From Coriobacteriaceae bacterium AM48-5 (GTDB lineage Bacteria > Actinomycetota > Coriobacteriia > Coriobacteriales > Coriobacteriaceae), in assembly GCA_027669525.1 (NCBI GenBank), contig JAQEDJ010000006.1, positions 1 through 64,000 of the forward strand: a stretch of DNA of 64,000 nucleotides. The letters are read 5' to 3'. Shown piece after piece: positions 14,131 to 21,751 of this stretch; position 1 is the first letter of the stretch, and the number at the start of each line of letters is the position of its first letter. Below the pieces are notes generated by a model. The model saw only the letters and a list, made by a program, of their open reading frames with translations, was not told the DNA's origin and ran no database searches. A program made the position numbers and the translations under genes.

Positions 14131-14754
14131 TTCAGCAGGTCAAAGCAATTAGTCATTTTGCAGACGCATTAAAAATGAGGGGTATTTGACAAGTCGGTAA
14201 AACGTTACCAACACGGCTACCTGCATGGCAGTTATAAAACCCCCTTAGTCAAGCCGCTGACAAATCCTACCAAAACCAAGCCGCTCACGCCAAAAGAATC
14301 CAAAAATTTGTGCTTGACCAACATGTTGCGGTCGCCTCTTGCCATGCCCGTTCGCCTTATTGATCCATTCAAGCTGCAAACATTTGGTGGGCGTTACAAA
14401 AATTGAACTTGTGACCTCTTCCGTGTCAGGCCGAAACCGAAAACCATCCGTACTATATCGCAACGTTTGCAACGCACCGTTTTTGCCTGTAGGTTTGCAA
14501 AAGCTACCGTCCGTATCGCTCATACCGTTAACCTGTGTCCACAACGTTGGTGGAATGTTTGGTGGACCATCTGGTGAACTGCCAGATAGACGGGAGAAAC
14601 GGGCGAGCGATATTCTACACGCCGGGCTCGGCAAGATTATAAACAACCGCTTTAGACCCTCGGATATCGCTCTCCCGTTTCCAAGAGCTCATATCGCTAC
14701 GCATTTTAAGTAAGGCGTGTAGCCGCCTCTAATGAAAGTGAGGATGCTGTAATT
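14131..14754. other. Intergenic region at the island's left edge
   Basis: No convincing gene. It contains a partial copy of the tRNA-Val 3' half (14376-14433) and is flanked by the unknown 597-residue gene. No integrase remnant is recognisable. Confidence 0.6.
14376..14433 (-). repeat. Partial copy of tRNA-Val 3' half (putative att site)
   Basis: It matches the CCA end to anticodon-stem part of the tRNA-Val gene at 19276-19330, with an exact 18-base block at the CCA/acceptor end and an exact 19-base block over the anticodon region. The T-arm between has a few differences. Similarity stops abruptly at the anticodon loop, as at a recombination junction. Confidence 0.8.
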
Positions 14755-16548
14755 CTATTCCGATGCAGCTGGTAAAAATCTTGCGATTGGCCAACTAAAC
14801 AACACGGCCCTCTGGTCATCGTCGAGGTTCTGAATACAATCATTTGAAAAATCCGGCTTATCGAGTAGCGCATATGCGCAGGCCTTGTCTGTGACGGAAG
14901 AGTCGACAGATAGGGCAATACTTCTCAGCGCCTTTTGCTCGCTTGTCGATAAGGCGCCCAACCGCTTGCTAATTTGCGCCGAGTTAATTACATATGCACT
15001 GTTGCCGGAATCAAGACTGAACAGCGCGTCAGCCAGGAGGCGGCAACAGCCAAATAGCTGTGCTTCGCATACGGCGTCAGCATCAATAGCGGCCAGCATG
15101 TCAAGCAGTTTTAAGGTGGAGGCTTCGGAATTCTTCTCTGTTATTGGAAAGCGCTCTAGACAGCTAGCAAAACTATCCGCATTGATATTTGCTGCCAGCT
15201 GATAGTCCTCGGCCGTCAAGCACAGTAGGCCCGGCACTGGCGAGAAATCCTCCGGCTTGGGAGACTCTTGAACACCCGGAGTAAAGCACACGCTGGCATC
15301 CATGGGATTGAACAAGTTATAGAGTCCGTCAGCGTTTCGCTTTGCGAACACCTTTACCCTCGTGCCCAAAATATCGAAGTTAAGATTGATGAGGTCATCC
15401 TCGAAGCAATCCAGCTCAATAGCTTGCCCTTCAATAAAGGCAAGCTGAAGCCGTCTAATATTTCTCCAATCCGTTCCGTTAAGCTTTGCCGGATCCCATA
15501 CAGCGGAGATTTCAAGCCGGTCGAGTAAACGAGCAAATGGCTCAATCTCTTGAATATGCTCATCTATTTCTCGTTCGAAAGCGTCATCAAAATGCACGCG
15601 CCCATGAATTCGGCTATTTATTATCAACTCACCGGTATGCTGTATTTCCTTTGCAAGAAGGAGATCCCTTAAACGTTCCCGAACACCCCCTGTATAGGTA
15701 AGGCTGACACTGGGCCGTTCTCCAAATCGAACGACGAAGCCACCAAATTTAATGTAGCTCCCCTCTTGGTCTTCCCCAATCATGCCCATAATGGTTTCAG
15801 AATGCTCGGACGTACTGATTGAGCACGGGCATCCCGCTTCTATGGCACATACATTTTCAAGCTTGTCAATCGCATAGGATTCGCCATTCGGAGCAACACC
15901 GTAGAGATATGCGCCGTTTGCGAGTGAGGCTAACGAAAATGGGAGTTCGTCCGAATAGAGGGTCTTGACAATTTGGATTTTAGAGTAGTTTGGAATAGAG
16001 CAGCCGTCCTTTGCCTTCTCTCCAGGAACGACAAGGGTGACATTGCCCTGCTTCCGCGCATCCCGCACAAAGTCACGGCACAGCCTTTCGAGCTGTCTAG
16101 GCTTATCGGATAAGGGGTCGAATCGGTCACTTAGCGTTTTCTGGCCGCTGTCATTGAGCTGTGACAGAGCCTTATTGATGTCGTAGGGCAGATACTGTTT
16201 GTAGTAGATGCCGTCTAGGGTCAAGTCAGGATTTAAAAAGACTTTGAAATAAAGGACTCCGTGAAAAACTGTTGCGTACTTCTTCAAATCCTCTACACAG
16301 ACACGTACCTTTGGATGCTCGCTGTGACGTCTGCTTACTGTAGCCTTTACTTGCGCGTCGATTTCTCCAATTAGGGTTGCTTTCGTCAGAGATTCTCCAC
16401 TGTAGACCTCTATGCGCCCATCGGTACACACCCCTTTGTCATTCTTGTCCAAATGGGGAAGTATGGTAGGAACGCAAGAAAAGGCTTCCTCCACTTTGGC
16501 GATACCGACTTCTTCAATCTTCTTGTTATCGGGTTTGCTTCTGCTCAA
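14755..16548 (-). CDS. Unrecognised 597-residue island protein with nuclease-like N-terminus
   Basis: Not matched to a known family over its full length. The N-terminus (residues about 10-75) has EEVGIAKVEEAFS, then TDGRIEVYSGESLTKATLIGEIDAQVKATVSRR broken over a beta-sheet pattern, which resembles DUF4365 or PD-(D/E)xK nuclease-like domains (D...E...QVK). The rest (100-597) is a mixed alpha/beta region with several Trp- and Leu-rich helices and no visible transmembrane segment. It lies just after a BsuBI/PstI-type restriction-modification pair, on the same strand, in lower-GC DNA. A role in defence is inferred from context. The gene is intact. Confidence 0.75.
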   Translation of the reverse strand: MSRSKPDNKKIEEVGIAKVEEAFSCVPTILPHLDKNDKGVCTDGRIEVYSGESLTKATLIGEIDAQVKATVSRRHSEHPKVRVCVEDLKKYATVFHGVLYFKVFLNPDLTLDGIYYKQYLPYDINKALSQLNDSGQKTLSDRFDPLSDKPRQLERLCRDFVRDARKQGNVTLVVPGEKAKDGCSIPNYSKIQIVKTLYSDELPFSLASLANGAYLYGVAPNGESYAIDKLENVCAIEAGCPCSISTSEHSETIMGMIGEDQEGSYIKFGGFVVRFGERPSVSLTYTGGVRERLRDLLLAKEIQHTGELIINSRIHGRVHFDDAFEREIDEHIQEIEPFARLLDRLEISAVWDPAKLNGTDWRNIRRLQLAFIEGQAIELDCFEDDLINLNFDILGTRVKVFAKRNADGLYNLFNPMDASVCFTPGVQESPKPEDFSPVPGLLCLTAEDYQLAANINADSFASCLERFPITEKNSEASTLKLLDMLAAIDADAVCEAQLFGCCRLLADALFSLDSGNSAYVINSAQISKRLGALSTSEQKALRSIALSVDSSVTDKACAYALLDKPDFSNDCIQNLDDDQRAVLFSWPIARFLPAASE

Positions 16549-16631
16549 TAGTCAGTCATCCCATGTTGCAATGAATACTTCTGAAGTTGACAACTCGGCT
16601 CTTTTCCGAGGCGCTCCCTAAAGTCAAGAGA

Positions 16632-17594
16632 TCAATAAGGCCCCAGAAACTTCTCTCCATCAAGGTGAATCATATGGTCAGGCGTATCAGCGCACCACGC
16701 TTCAGTTTCCCAAGCCAAGTCACCAAGATAACCTTGCATGACTTTTCTGTTTGGGAAACATGAAACGAGTATCAGCTCATGCCCACTTTCACCAAACAGC
16801 TGAATTAGTTCCCGCTTTCGAGTCACATCAACTGGGCCATGGCTCGAACACGCTTCCATGAGATAAAGCCAGTTCTTCTCTTCAAGCCACACAATTAAAT
16901 CCGGTTCTTTGCCTCTGGGCGGCATTACCACGTTGATGTGCTTGAGCGTTTCGGCTTCGACCCTCTCATTCTCCTTGCTCGTGTCACCGATATAGAGAAC
17001 CGATGCGCCGGGAGAAAACCTCGGACAGAACTCCTCAACCATGTTTTTCACAAGAAGATTCTGTCCGCCAGCTGACAGTCGAATACTTGAACCGTTCGGA
17101 AGGATAACGGGGATTTTAACAAGCTCGCGTTTCTCTTCGACCCTTTCAAGCCATGTTTCGATATTCTCTTTGTACCGAACCAGCTCGTTGCTGAAATCAT
17201 CTTCGCCATAGTGTTTCAGCAACTCGACTGTCTGCGCACTCAACCGGTAGTTCCATTTCGGAGAATTGATTGGTCGAGCGGGATTGTCGGCGTTCTCCTC
17301 TACAAGACCCACCTGAATAAACTGATGCAACGTAAACCGCCGTATCGTCTCCCGTGTATTCGGCTTGTACTCGACACGGAATTCTTCCGCAATCCAATCC
17401 ATAATGGCACGAGTGCCGAGCATCAAGTTGGTTGCGTTAGACCATCCGTCGCCCAGTCCAAGCCCGGCAAGCGCGAGCAAAACCATTGCTGAACGTTGAT
17501 TGCTCCTCTCCTCATCCATGTCTAGGCACTTCAGAAAGAGCTGGGCACCCTCAATCGTAACGGTGTCACGAGCTACATCATAAGTGAGCGACAC
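16632..17594 (-). CDS. BsuBI/PstI-type restriction endonuclease
   Basis: A 320-residue type II restriction enzyme. The N-terminal region is helical and winged-helix-like. The catalytic domain has the family pattern LSAGGQNLLVKNMVEEFCPR, VLYIGDTSKENE, KEPDLIVWLEEKNWLYLMEA and SHGPVDVTRKRELIQLF; the PD and E/K residues of the active site are in the last two. Family members cut CTGCAG, so that is the expected site. It overlaps the methylase by 22 bases. The gene is intact. Confidence 0.85.
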   Translation of the reverse strand: MSLTYDVARDTVTIEGAQLFLKCLDMDEERSNQRSAMVLLALAGLGLGDGWSNATNLMLGTRAIMDWIAEEFRVEYKPNTRETIRRFTLHQFIQVGLVEENADNPARPINSPKWNYRLSAQTVELLKHYGEDDFSNELVRYKENIETWLERVEEKRELVKIPVILPNGSSIRLSAGGQNLLVKNMVEEFCPRFSPGASVLYIGDTSKENERVEAETLKHINVVMPPRGKEPDLIVWLEEKNWLYLMEACSSHGPVDVTRKRELIQLFGESGHELILVSCFPNRKVMQGYLGDLAWETEAWCADTPDHMIHLDGEKFLGPY

Positions 17595-18972
17595 TGCGCA
17601 TCAACCTCCTCTTGGCTGATTCCCTGATACCATTGCTCTCCCAAGATGGACAATGACGATCTCGAGGGCGTTGGCATGGCATTGAGGTCGCTTGCATTGA
17701 CCTGCGTGCTTCCAGATCGCGAGCGAAACCACTCTTCAATTTGGGTACTACGGAGCCATAGGGAGAGACCATTTGCCTCTAGCTCCGTCATCGGGACGGT
17801 TTTTCTTGGCGTCCCGGCATGAATATAGTTTAGATGATTCTCCAATGCCTCCGCTTCTAGAAGGCTTAGGGGATAGGCCTTGACTCTGCGACACTCCTCT
17901 TTTGAAGAGAAACGCTTGACCACAACGAAGCTACCTGGCCAATCAATTGTTTGCGTTGCTTTTCCGCACTGCAATCAATCCACTGAGCCTTTCCTTCCTT
18001 AACTGGATGCTTGAACCCATCATCTGAGAAGTTGCAAGAATAGATGAGTCGATGCAGCCCTTCTTTGAAATCGAAACTCAATACATTACGAGACCGAAAG
18101 TCAACCACTTTTCCCGTGCTCGCACACAAACCTTCCTCTTTGAGCGTTTTGAGCTTTCCCAACACAGCGGGTTCTACGGGCCGAACGCGAACTGTCTTGT
18201 CTCCTGCCTCATCAACAAGACAGGAAAAAGGATATGAGTTGACGGTCTGTTCGCCAGTTTTGTCCTGTGATTCGGAAACGCGAACCTCTACCTTCTGCCT
18301 ATCCTTTGATATGGCGAGAAGCATAGTCTCTTGCAGCACATCGGTATCTGAGAAAACCTCAGTTCGCGAGCCATAGATATGAAATGCGTCGATGGACACT
18401 CTATCGAACATCCACTCGCGAAACGCTTGGAAATACTGTCCGTTCATCCACGAGCGCGGAACGATGGCAACGCACTGTCCCCCTGGTTTCAACGCCTTAA
18501 TGGCGAGCATCAAGAACGCTGAGTAAAGATTTGGCGAACGCACTGGCAAAGCCGCTTGCCTCGGGTCGTCTGCCGCCATCTTCTTGTAAGGGGGATTCAA
18601 GATAACGCGGTCGTAATCACTTTCGATAGGTGCAGACAACGCATCCGCATTAATCGTTTTGTGTGCAATACCTAGTCGGTTCAACTCGGCATCGAAGATG
18701 GAGGCGAGGCGGGAATCCAACTCAACCCCATCAACAAACACGTTGTTGTCGTATCGCTCCGCCAACGCGACGGACAGGATGCCAGTACCGGCCCCCAAGT
18801 CAAGGCACTTAAAGTGATCAGGGCCTATATTGTCAGACATCATCGATGTAGCCAGCAACGCCGTCTGGTATGGAGTCAGATACTGGGAATAGTCTTCCCG
18901 CATATCGACAGTTGTGCTGGCAACTGTCGCCGTCCTTGTATCCTCTGCACTCAATAGGGCAGCTGACGTCAT
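17573..18972 (-). CDS. Type II N6-adenine DNA methyltransferase (one frameshift)
   Basis: About 466 residues, close to the 500 of M.BsuBI and M.PstI. Motif I is DLGAGTGILSVALAER near residue 58 and motif IV is the catalytic NPPYKK near 125. The C-terminal specificity part includes VVVKRFSSKEECRRV. An indel near 17945 splits the protein into two frames. It should protect CTGCAG sites against the adjacent endonuclease. The gene is transcribed first, ahead of the endonuclease. Confidence 0.85.
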
Positions 18973-19024
18973 GCTTAATTCCTCTCATCCAGCGCAAAGC
19001 GCCTTCAAATCCATCTATCAAATC

Positions 19025-19201
19025 TTATCTCTCCGTGTGGACAAAATATTGGACGCCGCCTCTTGAAAGACCTTCGATAACCTTGCCACGAACAAGCAAT
19101 TCCTCAAGCTGTGGCACAGAAACGGCAAATGGCCCATATCGAAATCTGGGCATATTGTTCACAAAGCCGTTGCGACAATCCATCACTTGACGAAAAGGCA
19201 C
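19025..19201 (-). CDS. Small hypothetical protein
   Basis: A 58-codon ORF starting GTG at 19199-19201 or ATG 15 bases downstream, with segments such as MPRFRYGPFAVSVPQLEELL and RGKVIEGLSRGGVQYFVHTER. It looks like a winged-helix or coiled DNA-binding piece but has no known match. No clear ribosome binding site is seen, so it may be a remnant. Confidence 0.35.
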   Translation of the reverse strand: MPFRQVMDCRNGFVNNMPRFRYGPFAVSVPQLEELLVRGKVIEGLSRGGVQYFVHTER

Positions 19202-19245
19202 GTTAAGTTTGCAAGTCAGTGGACAATTGATGCCCTAAAGCAAAA

Positions 19246-19273
19246 CAGCCCAGAGGACATAGCCTCTGGACTG
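19246..19273 (-). terminator. Terminator after tRNA-Val
   Basis: CAGTCCAGAGG pairs with CCTCTGGGCTG (one mismatch) followed by TTTTGCTTT on the minus strand, nine bases after the tRNA CCA end. Confidence 0.75.
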
Positions 19274-19281
19274 CGAACATT

Positions 19282-19356
19282 TGGTGGGCGTTAGAAGATT
19301 TGAACTTCTGACCTCTTCCGTGTCAGGGAAGCGCTCTCCCCCTGAGCTAAACGCCC
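19282..19356 (-). tRNA. tRNA-Val(GAC)
   Basis: 75 bases including an encoded CCA. The anticodon loop CTGACAC gives GAC, and acceptor (GGGCGTT/AACGCCC), D and T arms pair. It is the intact half of the putative att pair of the island. Confidence 0.93.
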
Positions 19357-19576: not shown

Positions 19577-21308
19577 CTACAACTCAGCAAGCATGATCCA
19601 GGCAGAACTGTCCTGCGCGAGCCTGCCGTCTGCAAGCGGTGATGAGGTGAGCAGGACCCTGCCCGCCGGCAGCTCCACGGGTGCTGCACCGAAGTTCGTC
19701 ACACACGCCCAGCCGTTGTCGCGGCGATAGGCGATGACGCCGCCCTCAGCGCCCTCGGCACCATCCGCAAGGCCGGTGCGCCCGTCAAGATCGAGCCACG
19801 CGAGATCGTTGGCGCACCCGCGCAGCTTGCGCCGCAGCCAGAGGGCGTCACGATAGAGCGCAAGCATCGATGTCGGGTCCGCTTCTTCCCTATCGGCAGC
19901 GTAATCGGAAAACCATGCAGGCTGCGGCAGATGGGGCGCCGCATCGGCGTCCGCCGGTGAAAACCCAAACGATCCGCCCTGCACGGGATCGTCCGCTGCC
20001 ACCCACGGCAGGGGCACACGGCAGCCGTCGCGCCCCTTCTCGCGCTTCGGTCCGTGCGTATTGGTCGCAGTAGGATCTTCGAGTGCGGCCCACGGGATAT
20101 CGGCCACCTCAAAAAAGGCCGAGCTCCTCACCCTGATACACGTATGTCGAGCCCGGAAGCGCCAGCTCGAGCAAAAGGCCGCCCGCGCGCGCGCTCGCCG
20201 AGTTCACGGTCCTCGTCATAAGACGACCCGTCGCGTAAGAGCCAGTCGAGCGCAATCTGGTGGTAGCGCGTCGCCTTGATCTGCGGCAGGGCATAGCGCG
20301 TCGCCACGCGCGGCACGTCGTGGTTGGAGAGCACCCAGGTCGAGGCGGAATCGGATTCTATAGCTGCCTTCAAGCCCTCCTCGATTGCAGCGTGCATGTC
20401 ATCATAGGTCCAAGTGGCCTTGGCAAACTCAAAGTTGAATGTCTGGCCAAGCTCGCTGGGACGCGCGTAGAGATACTGGCGCTCGGGCAGCACCCACGCC
20501 TCGGCAACGGCGCTGCGTGGCGGATCATAGCGGTCGAACACGCGGCGCCACTCGCGATAGATCTCGTGGACCTCGTTGCGGTCCCACAGCGGATGGGTGC
20601 CGTCCTCAACCATGTCATCGCCCTCGGCGAGATGCCACCGGTCGAGGTCATCGCGGTCGAGATCCTTGGCGAGACCGTGCGCCACATCAATGCGAAAGCC
20701 ATCGACGCTCGATCGCTCCAAAACGCCAGGACGTCGCAAAAGAACGCATGAACCTCGGGGCACGACCAGTCAAAGTCCGGCTGCTCGGGCGTAAACATGT
20801 GCAGATACCACTGACCGTCCGCGACGCGCGTCCAGGCGGGGCCACCAAAGTTGGCATTCCAATTGGTGGGAGGCAGCTCGCCGTGCTCGCCGCGACCATC
20901 GCGGAAGATATAACGGGCGCGCTCGGGCGATCCGGGGCCGGCGGCAAGAGCGGCTTTGAACCAGGGGTGCTGGTTGGACGAATGGTTGGGCACGATGTCG
21001 ACGATGACCTTGATGCCGTGCGCATGAGCCGCGGCGATCATGTCATCGAAGTCGTCAAGCGAGCCGAGACGTGGGTCGACATCGCAGTAGTCCGCCACAT
21101 CATAGCCGCCATCGACGAGAGGCGATGGGTAAAACGGGCTCAGCCAGATGGCCTCGATACCCAGCCGCTCAAGATAGTCCATCTGCTGGGTAATGCCCGC
21201 GATATCGCCCAGACCCGAACCAGTCGAATCCTTAAACGAGCGCGGGTAGATTTGATAAATCGCGGCATCGGACATCCATGGGCGCGAAGAGGACTTTTCT
21301 GTAGCCAT
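19577..21308 (-). CDS. GH13 alpha-glucosidase (three frameshifts)
   Basis: An alpha-glucosidase/oligo-1,6-glucosidase-type enzyme of about 577 residues. The first barrel region WMSDAAIYQIYPRSFKDS and DIVPNHSS are in the first frame. The nucleophile Asp in DGFRIDVAHG, acid/base Glu in AVAEAWVLP and the third acid in LSNHDVPR are in the second. The C-terminal domain ends SSAWIMLAEL in the last frame. Indels fall near 20710, 20180 and 20115. ATG 21308 follows AAGGGAGAT. It should release glucose from alpha-glucans; no signal peptide is seen, so it is probably cytoplasmic. Confidence 0.92.
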
Positions 21309-21405
21309 GGGATGAATCTCCCTTGCAACGAGGTTTTGCGAGATGCCCACGATGATACGCCCAAAGCTGACATTCACGGCAAACAACGCCGCAGCCACGC
21401 CCCAA

Positions 21406-21433
21406 AACGCTCGCTCCCTCTCGGGTTCGAGCC
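21406..21433 (+). repeat. 28-base direct repeat, left copy
   Basis: Contains GGTTCGAGCC, which resembles a tRNA T-arm. It is identical to 21752-21779. Confidence 0.75.
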
Positions 21434-21494
21434 TCCTGGGACGAATCGATCGATTAGTGAAAAGAACGGAAGACTTACTCCCCCGGCCACGACA

Positions 21495-21598
21495 GCGAGC
21501 GGGCTCCGGGTACCCCAGGTTGCCGCGAAAGAGGAGGGTAGCGTACTTTATGTACGCGACCGACGATTGAGGGGCAAGATGGGGTACCCGGGGCTCGC
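21495..21598. repeat. Nested inverted repeat upstream of the GH13 gene
   Basis: Outer arms GCGAGC...CCGGGTACCCCA (21495-21517, with a four-base bulge) and 21580-21598; the inner hairpin is GCGTAC-TTTAT-GTACGC with flanking GGT/ACC. Confidence 0.75.
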
Positions 21599-21615
21599 GC
21601 AGCGTCAACAAAAAA

Positions 21616-21637
21616 ACGCGGTTCGTTAGAACCGCGT
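21616..21637 (-). terminator. Terminator after the truncated tRNA-Gly
   Basis: A perfect 9-base stem ACGCGGTTC with GAACCGCGT is followed by TTTTTTTG on the minus strand. Confidence 0.85.
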
Positions 21638-21644
21638 AAGATAG

Positions 21645-21663
21645 TTGGAGCGGACAACGGGGC
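21645..21663 (-). pseudogene. Truncated tRNA-Gly 3' end
   Basis: The last 18-19 bases (CCCCGTTGTCCGCTCCA) of tRNA-Gly(GCC) are present with a downstream terminator, but the 5' two-thirds are absent. It looks like the remains of a fourth copy. Confidence 0.7.
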
Positions 21664-21751
21664 GTCCGCGTATCCGCTTCGCGGATCCGCACCGGCTTCG
21701 GCCGCCTGCCGGCGTCCTCGCCAGCTCGCTACAAACGCTCCGCGTTTGCTT

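Follow-up and report, generated by a model that had tools for sequence, protein, structure and literature searches.

A predicted DREN-type nuclease gene behind a BsuBI/PstI-type restriction-modification pair is a candidate accessory defence effector

The DNA analysed here, referred to as the window, comprises 64,000 nucleotides of contig JAQEDJ010000006.1 from Coriobacteriaceae bacterium AM48-5. We studied a gene of this window, labelled X, which encodes a 597-residue protein and lies behind the endonuclease gene (R) and the methylase gene (M) of a BsuBI/PstI-type restriction-modification (RM) system. Judging from sequence relationships, X belongs to a broad family of full-length proteins of ~600 residues with no assigned function, and recurrent linkage between X and RM genes extends beyond the window locus. 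X probably has a role in defence. Our leading reading, which we consider equally apt to be right or wrong, is that X is a single-chain defence effector that acts as an accessory backup behind the RM pair.

The reading frame of X begins with a TTG codon at 16548 and runs for 597 codons down to 14755 on the minus strand, at exactly the coordinates given in an earlier note on this DNA (14755..16548); the plus strand of the same interval contains many stops. Relatives align with X over its whole length at 93, 60 and 40% identity, and the most distant full-length ones at ~20%. Given these relatives, X is, by its conserved sequence, a real gene. It shares its strand with R, from which it is separated by 83 bp, in line with the note's remark that it follows the endonuclease. 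The product divides into predicted nuclease, middle and TPR-like domains.

The N-terminal part (residues 3–171; 16036..16542, minus strand) is a predicted PD-(D/E)xK nuclease with the putative catalytic residues D43, Q66 and K68, an assignment drawn from conservation and a structure model. All three residues are invariant in 59/59 and 41/41 aligned sequences, window X among them. Where the earlier note had read a D...E...QVK arrangement, the aspartate and the glutamine-lysine pair held, whereas the glutamate is conserved less strictly: 4/4 sequences of a small set share E47, yet it is missing from the 90% conservation list of the 59 rows. The proposed kinship with DUF4365 or PD-(D/E)xK folds was borne out by relatives and structure. 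Window X itself matched no Pfam family at E up to 1, PF14280 (DUF4365) included, and its DUF4365 link therefore runs through homologs: PF14280 is matched by 40/59 aligned members at E up to 0.1 (best 6.9e-08) and is a precomputed annotation in 11 of the 56 proteins found with a relative of X from genome G018 (genomes are labelled G, the locus stretches compared L and plasmid matches H, each with a number). The structure model of X aligns with SPARDA DREN nucleases and with Hjc resolvases. The VIA matches of the model to SPARDA end by residue 198, and the Foldseek alignments to SPARDA span 439–522 columns, but with root mean square deviations of 20 to 34. The PADLOC Aga_REase profile matched two family members, at positions 13–104 of 429 only. 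We are confident that X has the fold and the active site of a nuclease. A plasmid of Enterococcus casseliflavus (L061:5998-9546) encodes an 1182-residue protein with a nuclease-type N-terminus as in the X family (profile positions 5–152), followed by a far longer C-terminal part unmatched by the X family profile.

The remainder of the protein comprises a middle domain, delimited by prediction (residues 172–450; 15199..16035, minus strand), and a TPR-like helical domain recognized from the structure model and conservation (residues 451–597; 14758..15198, minus strand). In the TPR-like domain, N454, N522 and Q525 are invariant, and D489, R529 and P587 nearly so. The structure prediction that the earlier note had called for gave a mixed outcome: the N-terminus aligned with SPARDA DREN and Hjc enzymes as described above, whereas the middle part, folded alone as residues 169–450 (window 15199-16044), had no convincing match among solved folds. 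Sequence searches of solved structures gave no match. The note's statement that the C-terminal part matches nothing recognised also proved correct, in that searches of Pfam, PADLOC and NCBIfam with window X returned no named family and no NTPase domain; yet X as a whole falls in a phage protein family, phrog_9827, whose profile covers residues 6–589 (profile positions 3–576 of 584, E 1.6e-28). None of the anti-phage models of PADLOC-DB 2.0.0 matched X at E up to 1, and its relatives gave only weak partial matches. Among these, the AbiGii model weakly and partially matched five of the 59 members (best E 4.3e-06), in the middle region at residues 288–391, a position taken from member P0041 only. 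An NCBIfam beta-lactamase match of X, at E 0.14 and 11.6 bits where the cut-off is 585, was dismissed as chance.

How far the family could be traced depended on the query. A protein search with X retrieved 3 relatives, and a profile of those 3 retrieved the same 3, each within a capped list of 7996 scored candidates; the relative from G018 retrieved 56 proteins at E up to 0.01 (7998 candidates scored). Within the host order, relatives of X, remnants included, are present in 10/395 genomes. On plasmids, tblastn located relatives in Priestia, Paenibacillus, Brevibacillus, Planococcus and Glutamicibacter, and with deeper queries in Lysinibacillus, Clostridioides, Corynebacterium, Arthrobacter and Lacticaseibacillus; a profile of 59 members covers the plasmid relatives nearly end to end. 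Scans of genome contigs gave no hit with query A1 and two with query A3, and those of viral contigs one with A1 and none with A3. A sample of the phylum contained relatives in 0/396 cases, a result of little weight since the sample held no known positive. Confinement of X to its order is ruled out by full-length relatives on plasmids of Bacillota and Actinomycetota and in the phylum of an Akkermansiaceae metagenome-assembled genome (MAG). The copies in G013 and G008, considered at one point to be broken, have intact frames. Elsewhere the gene is damaged: G015 has a broken copy, G022 keeps a C-terminal remnant, and in G215 the final segment is separated from the rest. From these copies, X seems to be readily lost.

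The earlier note had linked X to restriction systems and proposed a gene-neighbourhood search, which upheld the link. Among 20 distinct contexts with readable neighbours, we counted a context as RM when X had, within ~5 kb, a methylase gene or an RM gene of type I, II or ISP. L042 and L060, without annotation, and L061, with the nuclease part only, were left out; the plasmid matches H13, H14, H16, H20, H21, H22 and H33 lie outside the count as such (H22 and H33 are one record, and H21 is the record of L057). Lone annotated restriction endonucleases, in Priestia (3.4 kb upstream) and P. polymyxa (Mrr-type, 3 kb upstream), were excluded. An RM gene was found near X in 8/20 contexts, a lower bound as regards plasmids, whose neighbours were taken from the incomplete gene tables of PLSDB and from Pfam searches of chosen neighbours.

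These eight contexts differ widely. Besides the window, G142/G299 has a BsuBI M-R-X arrangement, with X only 6 bp behind R. In G018, a type IIG enzyme (PADLOC 617 bits) lies 33 bp upstream of X. An Eco57I methylase is divergent to X in G215, and X in G851 is flanked by an N6/N4 methylase and an SNF2-type helicase. In the Akkermansiaceae MAG, a type ISP enzyme lies 27 bp from X in convergent orientation, and there is also an AbiEii gene, accompanied directly upstream by a DUF6088 gene. The C. glutamicum plasmid has an MmeI-type enzyme near X and Shedu on the other side, and the Arthrobacter plasmid has type I R and S genes. X is thus found beside six kinds of RM neighbour: BsuBI type II, IIG, MmeI-type, I, ISP and N6/N4-methylase-helicase. 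In the other 12/20 contexts (G160, G258, the G008/G013/G015/G022 type, Priestia, P. urinalis, Brevibacillus, Planococcus, Glutamicibacter, Lysinibacillus, P. polymyxa, C. difficile and L. rhamnosus), no methylase or classical RM gene was seen within ~5 kb, a weak negative for plasmids with their incomplete tables. The neighbours here include an AAA_14/DUF4143 ATPase in the G008/G013/G015/G022 type, a phage-type integrase in C. difficile, XerS in Planococcus and a helix-turn-helix (HTH) protein in L. rhamnosus. On the Priestia plasmid (L037:8909-12653), a Gabija-like pair, made up of an OLD-type ATPase gene and a UvrD-type helicase gene, is convergent to X and lies behind two genes annotated as DndB.

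The linkage was also assessed against gene density. At 5/8 distinct chromosomal loci, X has a methylase gene from one of three Pfam families no more than 5 kb away, where 0.14 would be expected by density (P ~7e-08), with methylase loci merged by hand and with G299 (the G142 locus) and G013, G015 and G022 (of the kind of G008) dropped before arriving at the eight. As a control from the same genomes, 1/16 AbiEii genes lies within 6.5 kb of such a methylase, namely the AbiEii beside X; this control is small, takes 6.5 kb between starts, keeps G299, merges two G215 pieces and includes one match below the cut-off.

The chief competitor of the accessory-backup reading is that X is a stand-alone defence nuclease with a trigger of its own, found near RM genes because defence genes pool in shared islands. 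We regard this as rather unlikely. It gains from the 12 contexts in which no RM gene was seen nearby, from the widely differing type of the RM neighbours and from the existence of a phage family, phrog_9827, for X. Against it stand the tight same-strand spacing (83 bp in the window, 6 bp in G142 and, in G018, 33 bp after the IIG enzyme) and the methylase proximity of X compared with that of AbiEii. Shared islands could nonetheless explain both, and X and RM genes may occupy the same islands without working together.

Another possibility, that X is a true restriction component, is quite improbable. X would then provide the system with another endonuclease, perhaps a modification-dependent (type IV-like) one, and would read DNA with its middle domain and cut phage DNA beyond the reach of the RM pair. 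As to the two options named in the earlier note, a third RM component or an independent defence protein, the six kinds of RM neighbour and the 12/20 contexts with no RM gene seen disfavour the role of an obligate subunit and favour that of an accessory effector. An obligate part in BsuBI/PstI systems is ruled out: among the order's 395 genomes, 17 encode a BsuBI/PstI endonuclease, 13 of them in a full-length frame, and 11 of these 13 loci lack X in the stretch examined. The two that have it belong to one genus.

We inspected the same-strand gene behind R in five of those 11 loci. It encodes an AlbA/Schlafen protein in G058, a 409-residue protein without Pfam or PADLOC match in G021 and a 202-residue protein without match in G027, and AbiH is located ~0.7 kb past R in G313 and G317. 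The third position, behind R, might therefore accommodate different accessory genes from locus to locus. At some of the other six loci, the next open reading frame (ORF) lies on the opposite strand. Further same-strand ORFs occur behind R in G271, G229 and G214.

As an accessory backup, X would combine a metal-dependent nuclease of DREN type (DUF4365) with a middle domain and a TPR-like domain carrying a strictly conserved polar site. The nuclease would remain silent as long as the C-terminal parts detect neither infection nor failed restriction. Once triggered, X would oligomerize and cleave nucleic acid regardless of its sequence, halting the phage at the expense of the cell, and as the third gene behind an RM pair it would form a second line. 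We infer the catalysis, the silent state, the trigger, the backup role, the coupling to RM and the cell death alike. A direct physical or regulatory coupling of X to the RM enzymes is a tentative proposal, somewhat more apt to fail than to hold.

DREN nucleases are known from one class of Argonaute systems, in which they are collateral effectors. X resembles the SPARDA DREN-APAZ proteins in its N-terminal nuclease fold, in a C-terminal, presumably regulatory part after the nuclease and in a D-QxK triad at nearly equal positions (D43/Q66/K68 in X; D41/Q60/K62 in NbaSPARDA, given as catalytic residues in the accessible portion of PMC12205087). In SPARDA, tetramerization activates the DREN nuclease (PMC12205087). 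X differs in its TPR-like end and unmatched middle domain, without an established APAZ match, and in adjoining RM genes. No Argonaute gene was found in the insert that carries X, and none is named in the annotated plasmid stretches of its relatives, for which the gene tables are incomplete. phrog_9827 is a family of phage proteins, whereas the X loci examined are mostly plasmid and chromosomal. The likeness to BsuBI/PstI type II systems lies in M and R, directly upstream on the same strand; X itself is not known to be part of the usual two-gene system.

A precedent for the logic, though only for the logic, is PrrC. In the accessible sections of PMC3506569, this anticodon nuclease is described as silent within the complex of the type I RM enzyme PrrI, with an anti-restriction peptide among the agents that release it, and the same sections propose that immunity loci generally carry suicide genes of this sort. 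An effector nuclease gene that lies beside RM genes and acts on failed restriction would be common to both. PrrC has an ABC-type NTPase domain and another nuclease and target, and its coupling to RM has been demonstrated, whereas that of X is conjectural. With its DREN-type nuclease and no NTPase match, X is no relative of PrrC. In the part of the DUF4365 literature that was accessible, we found neither a DUF4365-TPR protein nor one tied to RM described. As far as this search extended, the novelty lies in the DREN nuclease being joined to the middle and C-terminal half of X, beside several RM types, in a full-length family; the nuclease kind itself is known.

A bolder generalization, which we think distinctly unlikely, is that X founds a class of restriction guards. 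DREN-sensor proteins, as interchangeable additions beside at least six RM kinds, would be kept silent by working restriction and would degrade nucleic acid once a phage disables it, and the genes behind BsuBI/PstI R (X, AlbA/Schlafen, AbiH and the family-less proteins) would be swappable backup modules. If X guards restriction, anti-restriction phages would meet a second line within one cassette, and the built-in suicide effectors of RM loci envisaged in the accessible text of PMC3506569 could be tested by cloning a single operon. Should X act alone, a family listed in PHROGs as of unknown function and unmatched in PADLOC would still gain a probable activity and an active site open to testing.

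The earlier note had also placed X within an island, and comparison with congeners agrees. R (16632..17594, minus strand; 320 residues) is a BsuBI/PstI-type restriction endonuclease (PF06616 E 1e-47, PF17728 E 2.2e-40, PADLOC REase_II 417 bits) with an intact frame. M (17573..18972, minus strand) is an Eco57I-type adenine methylase (PF07669 E 1.3e-11) in two frames (18972..17866 and 17974..17573); its frame is split near 17935, an intact relative matching both frames by tblastn. The pair has the features of a BsuBI/PstI type II RM system, namely a BsuBI_PstI_RE and an HTH domain in R and an adjacent adenine methylase, here with a broken frame. An amylase-like gene, recognized by eye at 19577-21692, is likewise spread over three overlapping frames, and assembly indel errors are therefore a possible cause of the split in M.

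The insert of ~4.9 kb (14334..19236), delimited by congener comparison, GC content and ORFs, contains no large gene apart from M, R and X; its remaining ORFs of at least 90 residues have 93 to 133. Homology to four congeners breaks at 14333/14334 and resumes at 19237, and the insert is absent from the matching site in all four. GC content is 0.494 inside the insert and 0.568 and 0.597 outside. A tRNA-Val (gac) gene (19282..19356, minus strand), found by tRNA search and congener comparison, is the presumed integration site: a 57-bp segment that covers one of its ends (19271-19327) recurs as a direct repeat on the far side of the insert (14374..14430), a putative attachment site with 91% identity (52/57, against a best ungapped 32/57 among 200 random window stretches). 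Based on the congener breakpoints, the tRNA-Val repeat and the drop in GC content, M-R-X is most simply a tRNA-Val-integrated cassette. That X serves this mobile element, as a resolvase-like or maintenance nuclease for its movement or persistence, is highly improbable, as recombinases are named in only 3/11 annotated plasmid stretches and none, nor any integrase, was recognized among the insert ORFs, four SPARDA entries score above Hjc in the structure comparison, and the Hjc Holliday-junction resolvases are small single-domain recombination enzymes without a counterpart of the C-terminal 400 residues of X.

The tRNA-Val (gac) site is variable among congeners: the place of the M-R-X cassette is taken by ~7.9 kb of other DNA with other genes in G001 and G007, and by ~0.1 kb in G006 (114 bp) and G011 (91 bp). 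No second repeat copy was found at the tRNA-Val loci of G018 and G215. A tRNA-Val (gac) gene does lie near X in both genomes, at ~6 kb in G018 (L010:2103-2177) and at ~1.7 kb in G215 (L018:11444-11518), which hints at a shared tRNA-Val integration site for these X loci.
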